Below, piece after piece: positions 13,019 through 62,141 of a stretch of DNA of 64,000 bases. Source of the DNA: Deltaproteobacteria bacterium (GTDB lineage Bacteria > Bdellovibrionota_C > UBA2361 > SZUA-149 > JADZAE01). The DNA is taken from assembly GCA_020852715.1 (NCBI GenBank), contig JADZAE010000067.1, positions 1 to 64,000 of the forward strand, read 5' to 3'. Position 1 is the stretch's first letter. Each line of letters begins with the position of its first letter. The notes beneath the pieces are model-generated. The model had not been told where the DNA came from. It was given only the letters and a program-made list of their open reading frames with translations, and made no database searches. Position numbers and translations under genes: made by a program.

Positions 13019-13809
13019 ATGTCTAAGCAAACATTAGTTACGTTTATTTTATTTTTAGGGATAGCTGTTTTAGGCTCATCGCTAAGTAGTGCCGAAGAGA
13101 AAGAGGGACAGCAGAAACCCTCTCCGGACGTCGTAATGTTGAAAGAGGGCAATGAGCGTTTTGCTGCCGGGAAGAGCACAAGACCACATAGTGGTCTTGA
13201 TCGTTTGGCGCTAGCCGGAAAAGAAAGTCAGGCTAATCATGCATTAGCTACTATATTGTCTTGTTCTGACTTCCGTGTTCCTGTCGAATATATCTTTGAT
13301 GTTGGGTAATGGATATTTTTGTTTCTCCTGTCGCAGGAAATATTGCAGGTAATGATGAAATAGGTTCAATTGAATGTGGGCTAGGAAATGTGAATACCCC
13401 TCTTTTGGTGGTGCTTGGACACTCGCAGTGTGGAGCCGTCACGGCAGCGGCTAAGGCGGCGCAAGGAGAAAAAGGACATGATTTAGAAAAACATATTGGT
13501 CTACCTCTGTCGCACATTGCACCGGCAGCTAAGCGCACCGTAGAGGCTTTCCCTTATCTGCGCGGTGGCGAAGTTATTCCTTTAGCCATTGTTGAAAATA
13601 TTTGGCAGACGATAGAAGAGCTTCTTACCAAAAGCGTAGCAGTGAGAGATTTGGTCAAAAAAGGCACTGTTAAAATAGTGGGTGGTGTTTACGATGTTGG
13701 TTCAGGAGATGTCACTTGGTTAGATACTGCCAAAGTAAACGAGATTCTGAAGAAAGCTGATGCGGCCGCAGGCAAGGCGCCTGAACTATCACAGGAAACG
13801 GCCCACTAA
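13019..13809 (+). pseudogene. Periplasmic beta-carbonic anhydrase, split by a frameshift
   Basis: Beta-class carbonic anhydrases interconvert CO2 and bicarbonate at a zinc ion. The first part (13019-13309) has a signal peptide (residues 1 to about 25) and the C82-S-D84-F-R86 motif, supplying one Cys ligand and the Asp-Arg dyad. The second part (from 13309) continues with MDIFVSPVAGN and HSQCGAV, giving the His and second Cys ligands. Between them GATGTTGGGTAATGG puts the stop in frame; one more G in the GGG run (13304-13306) would restore a continuous enzyme of about 263 residues reading FDVGVMDIFV. It is therefore a one-base deletion in a G run: a real mutation, a sequencing error or, less likely, programmed slippage. 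A strong AGAGGAG site precedes the start. Confidence 0.85.
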
Positions 13810-45306: not shown

Positions 45307-45789
45307 ATGAAGAAAGAAACGTGGAAATTAATTGTTTCGATTCTTATTTGTCAATTGGCTGGTGTCATCGGGTCTTTTTACACTCGCCCTGCAGTTAGTT
45401 CTTGATATGTGACATTAAATAAACCAAGCTTTAATCCGTCGGATTATATTTTTGCCCCTGTTTGGATTACCTTATATCTGCTCATGGGGATATCTTTGTT
45501 TCTTGTTTGTCGCCGAGGAATCGTGAGCAGTAACGAGAAGACGGCAGTTATATTGTTCATTGCCCAACTTATTTTAAATGCCGCTTGATCAATGATATTT
45601 TTTGGCTTAAAAGCTTTTTTATTAGCTTTCCTTGAACTGTTGGGCTTATGGCTACTGGTGATGATGACAGTGATATATTTTTATCGAGTATCCAAAACGG
45701 CGGCGATCTTACTTATCCCCTACCTTATTTGGATAAGTTATGCTCTGTGCTTAATTACTCTGTTTATAGTTTGAATTAACAATGGCTAG
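45307..45789 (+). pseudogene. tspO: TspO/MBR family protein with TGA codons at Trp positions
   Basis: TspO is a five-helix membrane protein binding porphyrins and implicated in stress regulation. The frame from the ATG at 45307 reads LAGVIGSFYTRPAVSS-*-YV, TLNKPSFNPSDYIFAPVWIT, LYLLMGIS, LILNAA-*-SMIFFGL and LLIPYLIWISYALCLI. The two asterisks are TGA (45403-45405 and 45586-45588) at the sites of the near-invariant Trp in WYxxLxKP and LNxxWS. A third TGA (45772-45774) reads FIV-*-INNG before TAG at 45787-45789, near the usual C-terminal IWxLN. With TGA as Trp the protein has 160 residues, the normal length, and its stop overlaps the next gene's start. Four other Trp codons are TGG. It is either a pseudogene or recoded; see findings. 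Confidence 0.85.
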
Positions 45790-48794: not shown

Positions 48795-49796
48795 ATGAGA
48801 GCGATAAAAGTATTACTAGGTAAACTAATTTCCAAAATGCTCGTGGTGTTGCCGCCGCTGTCTTTGGCCTATTTATCATCCGCGTTAAAAAAGAATTGCT
48901 AATCCCCGGTAACAGTGGAAGTGCTAGATTGTTTATTAAAAAAATATTCTTATGCTCAATTTAAAACGCACTTAGAGACGACTTGTCCGGATGCGATCGG
49001 CTTTACCGCTTTTACTTTTGAATTTCCTTCGGCGTTAAAAATGGCCGAGTTGGTCAAGGCGGGTAACCCCAAAATCAAGGTTGTCATTGGCGGCCCTCAG
49101 GCATCGGCGGTACCGCTTGAAGTGATGAAATATCCGCCAGTGGATTTTGTAGTTCTTACCGAAGGCGAAGATACTTTTGCTCGGCTGGTAGATGCGCTGG
49201 CTGCGGGAGATTTATCCTTTGGAGGAATTAATAACTTTGCTTATCGTCAAGGCGCTGAAGTTAAAGTTAATCCTGTGCTGCTCAGTGACGATTTTGAGGC
49301 GCTTCCATATTCTGATTTTAAAGCTATCGATTTACCGAAATATCCCAAGCTTTATCTAGCTAAAGAACATCCTTCTGCACCGATTATAACATCCCGCGGT
49401 TGTCCTTTTAGCTGCAGATTTTGTTCTGGCCCTAAGCTTTCCGGTAAAAAGTTTCGCTCTCGTTCCGCTGCGAACATCAGCGCAGAAATAAAGCATTGAA
49501 AAGAGAGGTATCAAATTAAGGAATTTCAAATTTGGGATGATAATTTTACTCTTGATAAACAACGAGCTAAAACATTTTGTGATCTGCTTATTCAAGAAAA
49601 GCTTGATTTGGCTTGGTGGTGTCCCAATGGAGTGAGGTTAGAAACCCTGGATAAGGAATTGCTAGGAAAAATGCGTGCTAGCGGTTGTTATTCCATCGCT
49701 TTTGGTATTGAGTCCGGCAGCGAGAAAATCCAGAAAGATATGAAAAAGAATTTGGATTTTAATCGCTTGATAGTAGCCAATATTAATTATGCCTGA
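48795..49796 (+). pseudogene. B12-binding radical SAM protein gene, disrupted and truncated
   Basis: One frame from the ATG at 48795 reads LPPLSLAYLSSALKKNC-*-SP, VTVEVLDCLLKK, DAIGFTAFTFEFPSALKMAE, VVIGGPQASAVP (cobalamin-binding-type domain), ITSRGCPFSCRFCSG (the radical SAM CxxxCxxC motif), EIKH-*-KERYQIKEFQIWDDN and GIESGSEKIQKDMKKN. In-frame stops are TAA at 48900-48902 and TGA at 49497-49499. It ends at 49796, before the C-terminal third of the usual domain. Relatives (BchE/hopanoid-type families) modify lipids or cofactors. The reading frame is intact between the stops, suggesting recent loss. The later TGA falls where relatives often have Leu or Trp. Confidence 0.8.
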
Positions 49797-49969
49797 TCTG
49801 CGCTTATCTTAAATGACCTTAAAAATTTCAGGTCTAAGGTGATTTGTCCAGAATTGTAAAAATTAGATAAAAACTAAGTTCAGTTTTAAGATTTGGGCTG
49901 GCTTAAATTCAAGCTATTTATTAGACTGGTGCGGCGTGTGATATTTGCTACCTATTTAGGGAGAAAATT

Positions 49970-57225: not shown

Positions 57226-57615
57226 TTATATTGTCAGTAAATAGCACCAAGGCAGGATGGCCGCACTTAGATAAATGAAATTTAAGGTATACAAGCTTGG
57301 TTTTACCCAAGAAACGCGCCTGCTGGCGGCGACTAGAAATAAAATAAACAAGATAGCTGAGAATTTGGTTAAGGCTAGCGCCCAAAAAGGGCCAATGTAA
57401 ATCATCAAAGACGCGATGAAAGCATTGCCCTCAACATCATTACCCAGCGCAGAGACGCCATGAAAAGTCAGCACCGCATCAATGAGCTGCAAAGCGATTA
57501 GTATAAATCCCAGCACCATTGCCCGATTATCGACATAATCATTAAGCCGCGCCCATCTTGCTTTTAAGACGAAAGCACTTTTCGGCAAGCTGTCAGCAGT
57601 GATTGGTAAAAGCAT
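57226..57615 (-). CDS. DUF5658-like membrane protein
   Basis: 129 residues with three hydrophobic segments (about 35-52, 73-95, 105-127). LQLIDAVLTFHGV and EGNAFIASLMIYIGPFWALA resemble the DUF5658 layout, a family of small integral membrane proteins of unknown function. It lies 52 bases upstream of the efflux permease gene and runs in the same direction, so co-transcription is likely. Confidence 0.65.
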   Translation of the reverse strand: MLLPITADSLPKSAFVLKARWARLNDYVDNRAMVLGFILIALQLIDAVLTFHGVSALGNDVEGNAFIASLMIYIGPFWALALTKFSAILFILFLVAASRRVSWVKPSLYTLNFIYLSAAILPWCYLLTI

Positions 57616-57796
57616 AAAAATAATTTAAAACTCAGCCCCTCAAACTACCTTGCCTTTAGCACAAACCATACCTTTACTCAAGGTAGAAGGTGGTGGCGCG
57701 AGCTTTGCTGAGTCATATACGCAAGTTTATCAAATGCGTTACTTGAGAGGATGCCGAGCTAGTGCCCCCGGCGTAAGAAAATACCGCGGCCGCACT

Positions 57797-57920
57797 GGGT
57801 GCGCATGACAGTAGCGTAGCTGCTGGCCTGCTGGGCGCGGTAGCGCCAAATATAAGGAGAGGCTGAAATATTTGCCCGCAAGTCATCGGCATTGCTTCGC
57901 AAACCCTGTCATGCGCACCC
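57797..57920. repeat. Inverted repeat family C pair
   Basis: Exact 15-base arms GGGTGCGCATGACAG and CTGTCATGCGCACCC are separated by 94 bases. The same CTGTCATGCGCACCCGGT occurs alone at 60579-60596. Confidence 0.7.
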
Positions 57921-58010
57921 GGTAGCTGCGCGCACATCGGAAGTCTATGTTGCTTGCGATGGGAATGGCAACGGTGGTGTGCGGCTTCGCCACCACCTGC
58001 CGCGTATCTT

Positions 58011-58069
58011 TGTAGCGTAGGCGAGTCAATTGTTCGCTGACGCTCACAACATGCCTCGCGTTCCACAAG
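58011..58069. repeat. Dispersed repeat family A, partial copy
   Basis: GTAGGCGAGTCAATTGTTCG then CTGACGCTCACAACATGCCT and CGCGTTCCACA matches the right half of the copies at 17484-17650 and 61535-61709. The left half is missing. Confidence 0.6.
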
Positions 58070-58312
58070 CGCCGGTGAAATTGTTTATACCCATGGCGGT
58101 ATCGCCGAGGATGTTGCAAAAATTTATTACTAGGGTAAGCTTTTCGACTTGTGTATAAGACTCAGCGTCTATGGGCATGATAGTAGAATCTACTTCGGAT
58201 TGCTGTAAGCAAAATTGCGGAGATTACATGACCTAAAAATGGGAAACGATAGATGTGCTTACCGTTGTCTATCGTGTAGTACGGGACAAGAACCGGCAAA
58301 GGTAAAATTTTC

Positions 58313-59098
58313 TCACTGTGCCTGAGGCGCGTTGCTATTGGCAGCTATTGCCCTTTTATCTTGTTCTTCTGCGCGCCTTTTAATTATCAGGGCCATCAAT
58401 CTATCGGCTTCTTTTTTTGCTGCTTCGTTTAATTCTTTAGTAATGGGAGCCTCCTCTTTAGGAGGACATTGCTGAGCAAAGAATTCAACTGAGCGGTTTG
58501 ATATATGTGTGATTAGCGCGCTCTCATTAGTTCCTTCTTGATATTCAGCAATCGGTTGCTGTTCGGCAGCCTTTTCTTCCGTTGGCTTTGGGTCGGGCAA
58601 ATTTAAATTAGATACTAAAGAGGCTTCTCTAACGAAACCTGGCCAGGGCTCGATCGGTTTGCCCACTGGATCACTATCTATTATCGGTCCTGGGTCTGGG
58701 CAGCACTGTAATAAGCGTGCGGCTGTTGCTGCATCCAGCCGGCCGGTGACAGGTAATTTTTCTTTGCGTTGGAAGGTGGCGACAACAAATGTTTGCATGT
58801 CTTTCATAACTGTTTGCGAGGGGTCTTTAAGAGCAGCTTCGCTGAGGTTAGCGACGGGCACTATTGTTTTCGGGTCGATTTTTAGCTGTTTTTCTCTAGC
58901 GGTAAGATTAGCTTCTGTCATGTTATATTGTTTGGAGTAGTCAGCTCCGTAGCGCGGATCTACAATATGCGCTATATTTTTAGCTTGGAAATATTGTTTA
59001 AACTTTTCTGCCTGCAAATCACTTCTTGTTTGCAGCTTTCGGATATCTTCGGAAGTGATTCCGTTATCTCTTCGGCTAGGAGAGCATGAGCGTTCCAT
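58313..59098 (-). CDS. Hypothetical protein with peptidoglycan-binding-like segment
   Basis: 261 residues. There is no signal peptide, but the start MERSCSPSRR is basic. The region TFVVATFQRKEKLPVTGRLD then AATAARLLQCCPDPGP follows the pattern of the peptidoglycan-binding PG_binding_1 repeat (FQxxxGLxVTGxLDxATxxAL). The rest is charged and probably disordered, rich in Pro, Glu and Lys, ending EEQDKRAIAANSNAPQAQ. GAGGAAAG precedes the ATG. Without a signal peptide, cell-wall binding is uncertain; secretion by an unusual route or phage-related function is possible but not shown. Confidence 0.6.
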   Translation of the reverse strand: MERSCSPSRRDNGITSEDIRKLQTRSDLQAEKFKQYFQAKNIAHIVDPRYGADYSKQYNMTEANLTAREKQLKIDPKTIVPVANLSEAALKDPSQTVMKDMQTFVVATFQRKEKLPVTGRLDAATAARLLQCCPDPGPIIDSDPVGKPIEPWPGFVREASLVSNLNLPDPKPTEEKAAEQQPIAEYQEGTNESALITHISNRSVEFFAQQCPPKEEAPITKELNEAAKKEADRLMALIIKRRAEEQDKRAIAANSNAPQAQ

Positions 59099-59528
59099 CT
59101 TTCCTCACTTTTAAAAATTTAAAAAATCTTTTTATCTGATCGGATCTGTCTGATCCGATCTTCTACTGCTGTTATTGGATTAGCGAATATTGTGTTGCAT
59201 TTATTACCATATTTATTTCAAGAAACTCCTCAGAGCGCTTCCGTGGCTTAAAAACGGTTAAAGTTAGTTCATGTAAGTGCCTTAATTGGCGAATGAAATT
59301 ACGATGGAGATCTTTTACCGTATCCCTTCACGACTTATAAATATGTGGAAAAGCAGCTATTTACAAAACATCAAAAAAATAAAAATTTATATTTTTAAAT
59401 AACCTGTAACCGTCGCGATTTTGAGCCGAATACGAGGAAGACGAGTGGCGAGCACCGTAAGTGTAGTGAACTACTCGCGGAGCGCAGCCACGAAGTCTGA
59501 CAAAGTAGTCGGCCAAAAGCGTGAACGG
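59099..59528. other. Intergenic region with inverted repeats
   Basis: No gene is seen. A degenerate CCTCAGAGG copy lies near 59222 (AAACTCCTCAGAGCGCTTCC), and a large imperfect inverted repeat covers 59400-59533. Confidence 0.5.
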
Positions 59529-59533
59529 TTACC
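59400..59533. repeat. Large imperfect inverted repeat
   Basis: The left arm AACCTGTAACCGTCGCGATT then TTGAGCC (59401-59427) pairs imperfectly with the right arm GGCCAAAAGCGTGAACGGTT then ACC (59511-59533). Inside, GAGTGGC and GCCAC also pair. The CCGTTCACG word in the right arm (reverse complement) is shared with the starts of the family B copies at 24939 and 61777. Confidence 0.5.
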
Positions 59534-60213
59534 TTTTACCTTTGAATAGGTCCTCCAGGGTAGAGCAGACGATGTATTTGCTGTGGTTGGCGTAGCGCTC
59601 AAAGGGTTGTTCAGTGTAGGGGTTGCTGCCGGGGTTTTCGTCGATTAACTGTTTTGCGCTGGCATAGTGCTGGTGATTTATTTTAAACATTTTTTGGAGA
59701 TTTTCATCGCCGTTTTGGCCATTAAGATATTGCATTTGCTTGGCGTGCTGGAGTTCGTGAGCGAGAAAGCCTACGTAAACGGTAATGGCATATTGGTTAG
59801 CCTGGGTGGGCCCTTGCTGCATGTTAATGTTTTCTATGTTCTGTCCTATGCTTTGGTTAATTACGGTAGGGGTTAATGGCAACCTCGCCTGTAACTCTAT
59901 TATAGGCAGCTAGACCGAGCATTATTTTACTATCGTTGGTAATGGTAATTTTCGCATCATTGAGATCATAGAATTCTTTTATATAGCGATTTAGTTCATT
60001 AACGGCTTTTATTTGATCCGTAGGGTTCAAATCAGTGTAATGATCAGCAAGTGATTTTAATCTTTCATTTTGATAGATGCTAGTGGCGAGATTCTCGCCT
60101 GATGACTGTAATTCCTGGAGATATTCTTTGTCCGGCAGTGTGTTTTTATAGACAAAGGTAAAGAGTTCTTCTTCGTCGTGAGTGACTTTGCCGTCGGCAA
60201 AAATACTTTCCAT
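59529..60213 (-). pseudogene. HExxH zinc-protein-like gene split by a frameshift
   Basis: The 5' frame (60213 to 59857) reads MESIFADGKVTHDEEELFTF and AAYNRVTGEVAINP; the 3' frame continues TVINQSIGQNIENI, YVGFLAHELQHAKQMQYLNG and ends at 59529. HELQH is a thermolysin-type zinc motif. Removing one C from the CCCC run at 59869-59872 (minus strand) joins the frames as VAINPTVINQ, giving about 227 residues. It is therefore one extra base in a homopolymer: true frameshift or sequence error. Function is unknown; the HExxH protein could be a metallopeptidase or structural. An unusually short upstream frame (60217-60333) ends 3 bases before its start. Confidence 0.7.
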
Positions 60214-60216
60214 GAT

Positions 60217-60333
60217 TTAATTGTTTTCTTTGGTGGAGAAGGCGGATTCGCTTAGGGTATTGAAAAGGGTTTCGCCTTTGGGTTCAGCTCGGCGAGAGTG
60301 AGGAAATTGTATTGCAGACATAAGTTGGCTCAT
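60217..60333 (-). CDS. Possible 38-residue small protein
   Basis: MSQLMSAIQFPHSRRAEPKG then ETLFNTLSESAFSTKENN, ending in TAA three bases before the ATG of the HExxH gene. There is no strong ribosome-binding site before its ATG. Closeness and codon-like composition suggest a small partner gene or a leader translated just before the next frame, but it may be chance. Confidence 0.35.
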   Translation of the reverse strand: MSQLMSAIQFPHSRRAEPKGETLFNTLSESAFSTKENN

Positions 60334-61000
60334 GCTTTTGCTCTGGGGCAGCTTGTGGCCACGGCGGCAAAATTAGACCATCTAAAGACCTTCCCTTTGA
60401 AGTATCTACGCTTTGGCTTTCCGGTTTACGTTGGAAATTTAATTGGGCTATTGATTAGTTTAAAACAAACTTCTCTTTACTTAACTATTATTATGAAGTC
60501 TTCCTAACCAAAGTTACCAGTAGAGCTATGGAGATGCTACATATTTTCAGCAAGCCAGCGTTTCGCTTCGCTTCACTGCTGTCATGCGCACCCGGTGCGG
60601 CAGCGGTATTTTGTGCGCCAGTGGTGCTGACGCGTGCTGCGCACGATTAGTAGTCCCCCGCTTGGCAAGTGAAAGGTGTTACTTATTTTAGTGTTTTTAG
60701 CGTATTGCCTTATTCTTACGGTAGCATTTGATTTGACTCATATCGTGTATCGCTAAAAAGCACATAAAACTTGGTTGGGGGCATAATAGGTTTATATTTC
60801 TTAAGTAGAGGAGATTTAGCACTTTAGGGAAAAGAGTGTCTTTTCCGTGAGGTAGTCTGGCAAGATTCAAATAAGGTTTTATTAGGTTTTAGCTCGTTCG
60901 TGTGTTCGCTGATTGTCCCTTTGTTCCTCTTTTTAGGGGAAGAGAGGGATAATCAAGCGAAAGCTCCGTTTTCGGACCCCATAGTCTTTTCTGAAGGAGG
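60334..61000. other. Intergenic region with family C repeat
   Basis: Nothing coding is supported. CTGTCATGCGCACCCGGT at 60579-60596 repeats the arm found at 57906. A hairpin-rich part (60900-60980, with CCTCTTTTTAGGGGAAGAGAGG and TCCGTTTTCGGA) leads into the SD-rich region. Confidence 0.4.
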
Positions 61001-61300
61001 AAAAGAGCATGCATCCACCCTAGCCGGTGTTTGTAATGTCTTTTAAACTCTCAAGAAAGGAGGAACGCCGAATGTATCTTCATATGCATCCGACATAGGT
61101 ACTTTAGCCCTCCGGCGAAGTACCCCCTGAACCTTACCCGGCGGCACGCTGGTAAGTTGTTCGTGCATTGAGGTCAGGGAACGGAGTGATACAGCGCACC
61201 GCGTGCGTCTGTTTTAGATCGGAGCATGGTCCTGGGATACCCCCAATAATCGACCGGCAGCTCTATCACAAGGGAAAGCCAGACTTCCCTCACTCCATTT
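60994..61300 (+). other. Candidate structured leader or ncRNA with two minigenes
   Basis: Two near-perfect ribosome-binding sites each precede a tiny frame: AAGGAGG (60994-61000) before ATG CAT CCA CCC TAG (61009-61023, MHPP), and AAAGGAGG (61056-61063) before a frame at 61072-61098 (MYLHMHPT). Both contain ATGCATCC. Downstream hairpins follow: GGTACTT/AAGTACC (61098-61124) with CCCTCC in its loop, which could pair with the second GGAGG; CTTACC/GGTAAG (61133-61156); and GGGAA/TTCCC (61272-61289) near TTTTATTT. No long gene follows for about 840 bases. I could not match it to a known RNA family. Confidence 0.4.
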
Positions 61301-61534
61301 TATTTAGATTTTAGAGGCGGTAGTACTGCCGGAAATACTGAGATGCTTCATATTTAGCAGGCCAAATGTTTTGCTATCGCCTCCTATCATGTCTACGCCT
61401 TTCATAAACACTGTGAGCATTGCATTCTCAGTCATCGCTAAGATGTGGAGCCTTATGCGTAAGTCTCTCTCTAAGAATATCGGGTTTTAATGTTTGTATA
61501 AAATAGCATGACGTAACAAAAGCCGTGGCCCCTG

Positions 61535-61709
61535 TGGAGCGCGGCACATCTTTAGTCGCGGAGCGGATAAAGTGGGCCGCTCGCGGATCGTGGGAACACA
61601 GCTTTTCTCGGCATTAGCCGCCACTATCGCTTCGCACTAGTGCCTGGGGATAGTGATACGTAGGCGACCCAGTTGTTCGCTGATGCTCACAACATGGATC
61701 CGCGTTCCA
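61535..61709. repeat. Dispersed repeat family A, copy 3
   Basis: It starts TGGAGCGCGGCACATCTTTA, carries GGCATTAGCCGCCACTATCG and GTAGGCGACCCAGTTGTTCG, and ends CAACATGGATCCGCGTTCCA. It has the same architecture as the copies at 17484 and 51097. Confidence 0.75.
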
Positions 61710-61776
61710 CAAAATACAGTGGTAATTTGAAAATTTATGGAGCTGACACTGCAGACTTTTGATACTGCAGGTGTAT

Positions 61777-61908
61777 CCGTTCACGATTTTTGCTGAGTTT
61801 CTATTCAAAAGCCTCCAGAGGGGGCAAGTTTTGCGAAGCAAAACTGTAGGGGGACAGAGACTAAGCCTTCACAAGATTAGTTGTTTCCGATGAGGAAACG
61901 TCAATAAA
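61777..61908 (+). repeat. Dispersed repeat family B, copy 2
   Basis: It begins CCGTTCACGATT and contains GCCTCCAGAGGGGGC, GTTTTGCGAAGCAAAAC and GTTTCCGATGAGGAAAC in the same order as the copy at 24939-25070. The two copies are close to identical over 132 bases. Confidence 0.75.
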
Positions 61909-62141
61909 CACGCCGATTAGCATATTCGCAATGCCCCTGTTTTGTTAAATAATTGATCCCGTGAAAGCTTATTTGTAGGTTCGCCGTAGGGCGCCCGCAA
62001 GGCTATTTTCGAGGCCTTAGCTAATCCGGACAGATTCGGCTAGGAGTGTCTTTGTGGCAACTTTTTTAAATGATTTCTGAAGCAATTGCCTGAAATAAAC
62101 CAATAACAGGGTAGGTGTGTAACGTTTTTTCTGAAGGGTTT

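Follow-up and report, generated by a model that had tools for sequence, protein, structure and literature searches.

A probable recent tspO pseudogene with TGA codons at two conserved tryptophan sites

A reading frame which is open save for TGA codons at tryptophan positions can suggest recoding, and such an appearance calls for caution. A frame of this kind, recognisable as tspO, lies at 45307-45789 in the window, the whole 64,000-nucleotide stretch of Deltaproteobacteria DNA analysed here. In the initial annotation it was described as free of frameshifts, with three TGA codons at or near Trp sites, and was explained either as a young pseudogene or as a gene translated with the help of a Trp-inserting suppressor. 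The question is thus whether TGA is read as tryptophan in this organism or whether tspO has simply been lost. On the evidence below the gene has very probably been inactivated recently. It would be an ordinary decaying gene and offer no new reading of the genetic code.

The tspO frame and its displaced C-terminus

The features of the locus are as follows.

45307..45779, plus strand: probable tspO pseudogene (TspO/MBR), recognised from PF03073 (1.3e-43), the alignment with 40 homologues and the C-terminal frame
45403..45405, plus strand: TGA at codon 33, the Trp of WYxxLxKP; Trp in 40/40 homologues
45586..45588, plus strand: TGA at codon 94, the Trp of LNxxWS; Trp in 38/40 homologues
45742..45753, plus strand: zone of a one-base frame change, from PYLIWISYA (main frame) to SVLNYSVYSLN (other frame)
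45753..45779, plus strand: TspO C-terminus NYSVYSLN and stop TAA (45777-45779), out of frame with the rest of tspO
45772..45774, plus strand: third TGA (codon 156), not part of the ancestral frame and hence no mutated Trp codon
45782..46633, plus strand: intact diacylglycerol-kinase/YegS-like lipid kinase, the next gene (Pfam DAGK_cat 2.9e-13, YegS_C 5e-9)

The main frame runs from the ATG at 45307 to the TAG at 45787-45789 and has TGA as its codons 33, 94 and 156, exactly as first reported. Its assignment to TspO also stands: with Trp in place of TGA, the match to Pfam TspO_MBR is 1.3e-43 and covers profile positions 2-140 of 145, and the remaining C-terminus is found in a second frame, so that the region 45307-45779 matches the family over its whole length. 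Identity to the family reaches about 59%. Homologues came from a public collection of genomes and from further whole genomes; 40 of them were aligned with MAFFT, a broken archaeal fragment (overlapping pieces, one of the two with two stops) being excluded. The alignment places codons 33 and 94 squarely on Trp columns, as had been proposed. Elsewhere in the frame four Trp codons are TGG. No internal stop occurs in the bacterial or archaeal homologues with a full-length match, which come from many phyla.

The 3' end of the gene does not bear out the earlier account of three Trp-to-TGA changes in a frame without a frameshift. Here the main frame reads ALCLITLFIV-TGA-INNG and is without the nearly invariant Asn. 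One base off, in the frame of 45753, SVLNYSVYSLN is followed at once by the TAA at 45777-45779, two bases 5' of the ATG of the next gene; the lipid kinase start at 45782 accordingly lies 2 bases past the ancestral tspO stop. Homologue C-termini take the form LNxxIxxLN, often with a stop directly after, and NYSVYSLN lies exactly where the TspO family ends, again with a stop directly after. A scoring matrix made from the C-terminal ends of the 40 homologues was run over the whole window in six frames, which hold 85,391 octapeptides without a stop; NYSVYSLN at 45753 came top with 19.0 bits, and the runner-up reached 11.5. Across the frame-change zone the nearest homologue reads WVSFASVLNFSIFYLN.

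The third TGA had been placed near a C-terminal Trp. In the MAFFT alignment it reaches a Trp column (W in 19/40) only by way of a 2-residue gap, for which the frameshift at 45742-45753 leaves no need. Since it lies beyond the point of frame change, this TGA is outside the ancestral tspO frame and was never a Trp codon; the missed frameshift near the end of the gene accounted for the third 'Trp' codon. There are thus two Trp-to-TGA changes and one frameshift, and the locus holds no intact open reading frame able to make TspO.

Probable gene decay and other broken genes

Two nonsense codons and one frameshift amount to several independent inactivating lesions, and the extent of change elsewhere in the frame is compatible with them. 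Leaving out the TGA sites, tspO departs from the family at 5 of 45 strongly conserved columns, by P45S, W68C and three mild changes among I, L and V. Intact homologues show 0-8 departures at the 45 columns, with a median of about 1-2; most have 0-4 and some 4-8. Simulations of neutral substitution, run until two nonsense codons had arisen, averaged 5.8-6.4 departures, and 52-55% of runs had no more than 5; the count covers the 40 columns at which the starting sequence equals the consensus. The observed state of the conserved sites is that predicted for neutral decay, although some intact homologues depart as often and some of the five changes may predate the loss of the gene.

It had been argued that random nonsense mutation would not be expected to pick only Trp codons and only TGA. 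With Trp restored at codons 33 and 94, a random nonsense substitution in the tspO frame is Trp-to-TGA in 8% of cases under equal rates and in 18-25% where transitions and G:C-to-A:T changes are favoured. There are two events to explain, not three, and, across the mutation models used, the probability that both are of this type is 0.7-6%. The coincidence is a mild one, in a case which was selected for that very feature.

Other genes in the window are also broken.

near 48798-49856: B12-binding/radical-SAM gene, broken, with TAA at 48900 and TGA at 49497 and 49794
near 13019-13809: carbonic anhydrase (Pro_CA), split in two frames, with the break at about 13300

The C-terminal part of the radical-SAM gene is missing. 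Its stops fall on columns other than Trp; that of the TGA at 49497 is mostly Leu and is Trp in no homologue. In the carbonic anhydrase the first zinc-binding motif, CSDFR, lies in one frame and the second, HSQCG, in the other; the split represents either a further broken gene or a one-base assembly error. Elsewhere in the genome, internal stops occur at 4 of the 25 places matching the histidine-kinase ATPase domain (HATPase_c), with TAA, TAG and TGA all represented; two neighbouring places belong to one frameshifted gene. The broken histidine-kinase ATPase genes sit on contigs 64 and 18. These breaks suggest that broken genes, or else assembly errors, are fairly numerous in the genome. Broken genes are not rare here, and the types of stop are not confined to TGA. 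No clear broken Pfam gene was found in the intergenic regions at 26.9-28.8 kb (plus strand) or 57.2-62.2 kb.

The young pseudogene envisaged at the outset is supported by the frameshift together with two nonsense codons, by changes at conserved sites at the neutral rate and by the presence of other broken genes nearby. An alternative is that sequencing or assembly errors have introduced the stops and the frameshift into an intact tspO. Single-base frame changes, as seen in tspO and in the carbonic anhydrase, are of the type typical of long-read assembly error. However, three independent lesions would be needed within 480 bases, whereas neither the adjacent kinase nor any of the long upstream Nuo genes is broken, and the stops are accompanied by missense changes at conserved sites. 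This explanation is considered unlikely.

The reading of TGA in the same genome

The question of recoding is settled by the genome's own release factors and tRNAs. Intact genes for RF1 and RF2 were found (prfA 3.1e-159, prfB 1.3e-151). In prfB, on contig 47, the classical CTT-TGA-C site (CTTTGAC) is found at the frame change, around base 299 of its locus. This site is an autoregulatory programmed frameshift, which needs TGA to be a stop read by RF2. Nor has TGA fallen out of use as a terminator, since 12 of the 45 long open reading frames of the window, Nuo genes included, end with it. A search of the genome gave 33 tRNA places, and the only tRNA-Trp among them has the anticodon CCA and an anticodon stem of five pairs, the first of which (27-43) is G-U. 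The UCA tRNA which suppression or recoding might have called for was not found among the 33 places, in a genome which is 92% complete and from which a gene could have been missed.

Further genes with TGA at conserved Trp sites were sought by family rather than by a gene-by-gene scan. Amongst 52 matches of four families in the genome, 5 have an internal stop (2 TGA, 2 TAG and 1 TAA), and the MFS and release-factor families have none. These matches did not show several sound genes with TGA on conserved Trp columns; of the internal TGA codons, that of the radical-SAM gene stands at a Leu column.

TspO might nevertheless be produced by readthrough, if leaky or regulated suppression let tRNA-Trp decode both TGA codons as Trp. 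Both stops are on Trp columns and no other stop interrupts the frame as far as the C-terminus; moreover, in-frame stops under purifying selection have been reported from bacteria (PMC7918605). The reported cases, for which readthrough is possible, resemble tspO in having stops within an otherwise recognisable gene. They differ in that their stops are shared by different species with dN/dS below 1, whilst here there is a frameshift as well and the stops are those of one genome's tspO. With this frameshift the conserved C-terminus is lost, the genome keeps RF2 along with the regulatory frameshift that senses TGA, and the changes at conserved sites fit neutrality. Furthermore, the tRNA-Trp has the anticodon CCA on a paired stem, whereas a 4-bp stem has been linked to UGA decoding in bacteria (PMC13092985), and two successive readthroughs of UGA would probably leave very little product. 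The two Trp sites are the sole positive sign for readthrough, all tests of mechanism being negative, and it is highly improbable. The same must be said of a weaker version, in which leaky UGA decoding by tRNA-Trp would yield low-level TspO with an altered C-terminus, TGA being tolerated at Trp sites and for that reason persisting. The Trp-inserting suppressor of the initial annotation likewise loses its footing: RF2 is intact, the only tRNA-Trp is CCA with a five-pair stem, no UCA anticodon is found among the 33 tRNA places and TGA is an ordinary terminator in the window.

Changes of the code from UGA to Trp have been listed for Mycoplasmatales, Zinderia, Stammera and Patescibacteriota JAKLIH01 (PMC13092985). 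They share with tspO the occurrence of TGA at conserved Trp positions. There, however, the change is genome-wide and in some cases goes with a UCA or 4-bp-stem tRNA-Trp (PMC13092985), whereas here TGA at such positions is limited to a broken gene, the organism retains RF2, and its tRNA-Trp has CCA and five stem pairs. That TGA means Trp throughout this organism, or in a donor of tspO, has in its favour two TGA codons on Trp columns and can be dismissed almost entirely: the genome-wide form, judged unlikely from the start, is ruled out by the organism's own RF2, its CCA-only tRNA-Trp and TGA at natural gene ends, the donor form by full-length bacterial and archaeal homologues without an internal stop, and TGG is used for four further Trp codons of the frame.

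Probable origin and course of decay

The preferred reading, a recently inactivated tspO, leaves the question of where the gene came from. It is absent from all 14 genomes of the same order which were searched, the closest homologues found belong to distant phyla and its G+C content of 37% is below that of most neighbouring genes. From these three observations it is reasonable to infer that tspO was acquired horizontally and then lost its value, though the low G+C would also be produced by A+T drift in a dead gene. The neighbouring lipid kinase has counterparts with 28-34% identity in order-level relatives, which are uninformative on the history of tspO.

After its acquisition and the loss of its selective value, tspO would have decayed through small indels and ordinary substitutions. 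The richness of the gene in Trp, combined with G:C-to-A:T mutation, may have made Trp-to-TGA a frequent hit. Because the machinery which terminates at TGA is present and there is no sign of recoding, translation would be expected to yield only the first 32 residues and to leave most of the five-helix protein unmade. The decay appears to be young, since the rest of the frame is still close to the family. In its full-length homology, its nonsense codons and frameshift and its lost conserved residues the locus resembles an ordinary TspO/MBR pseudogene, differing in that both nonsense codons are Trp-to-TGA, and it stands in a genome which appears to carry a number of broken genes. Further along the window, 57615-62115 is a segment of ~4.5 kb with few long open reading frames and no clear Pfam match.
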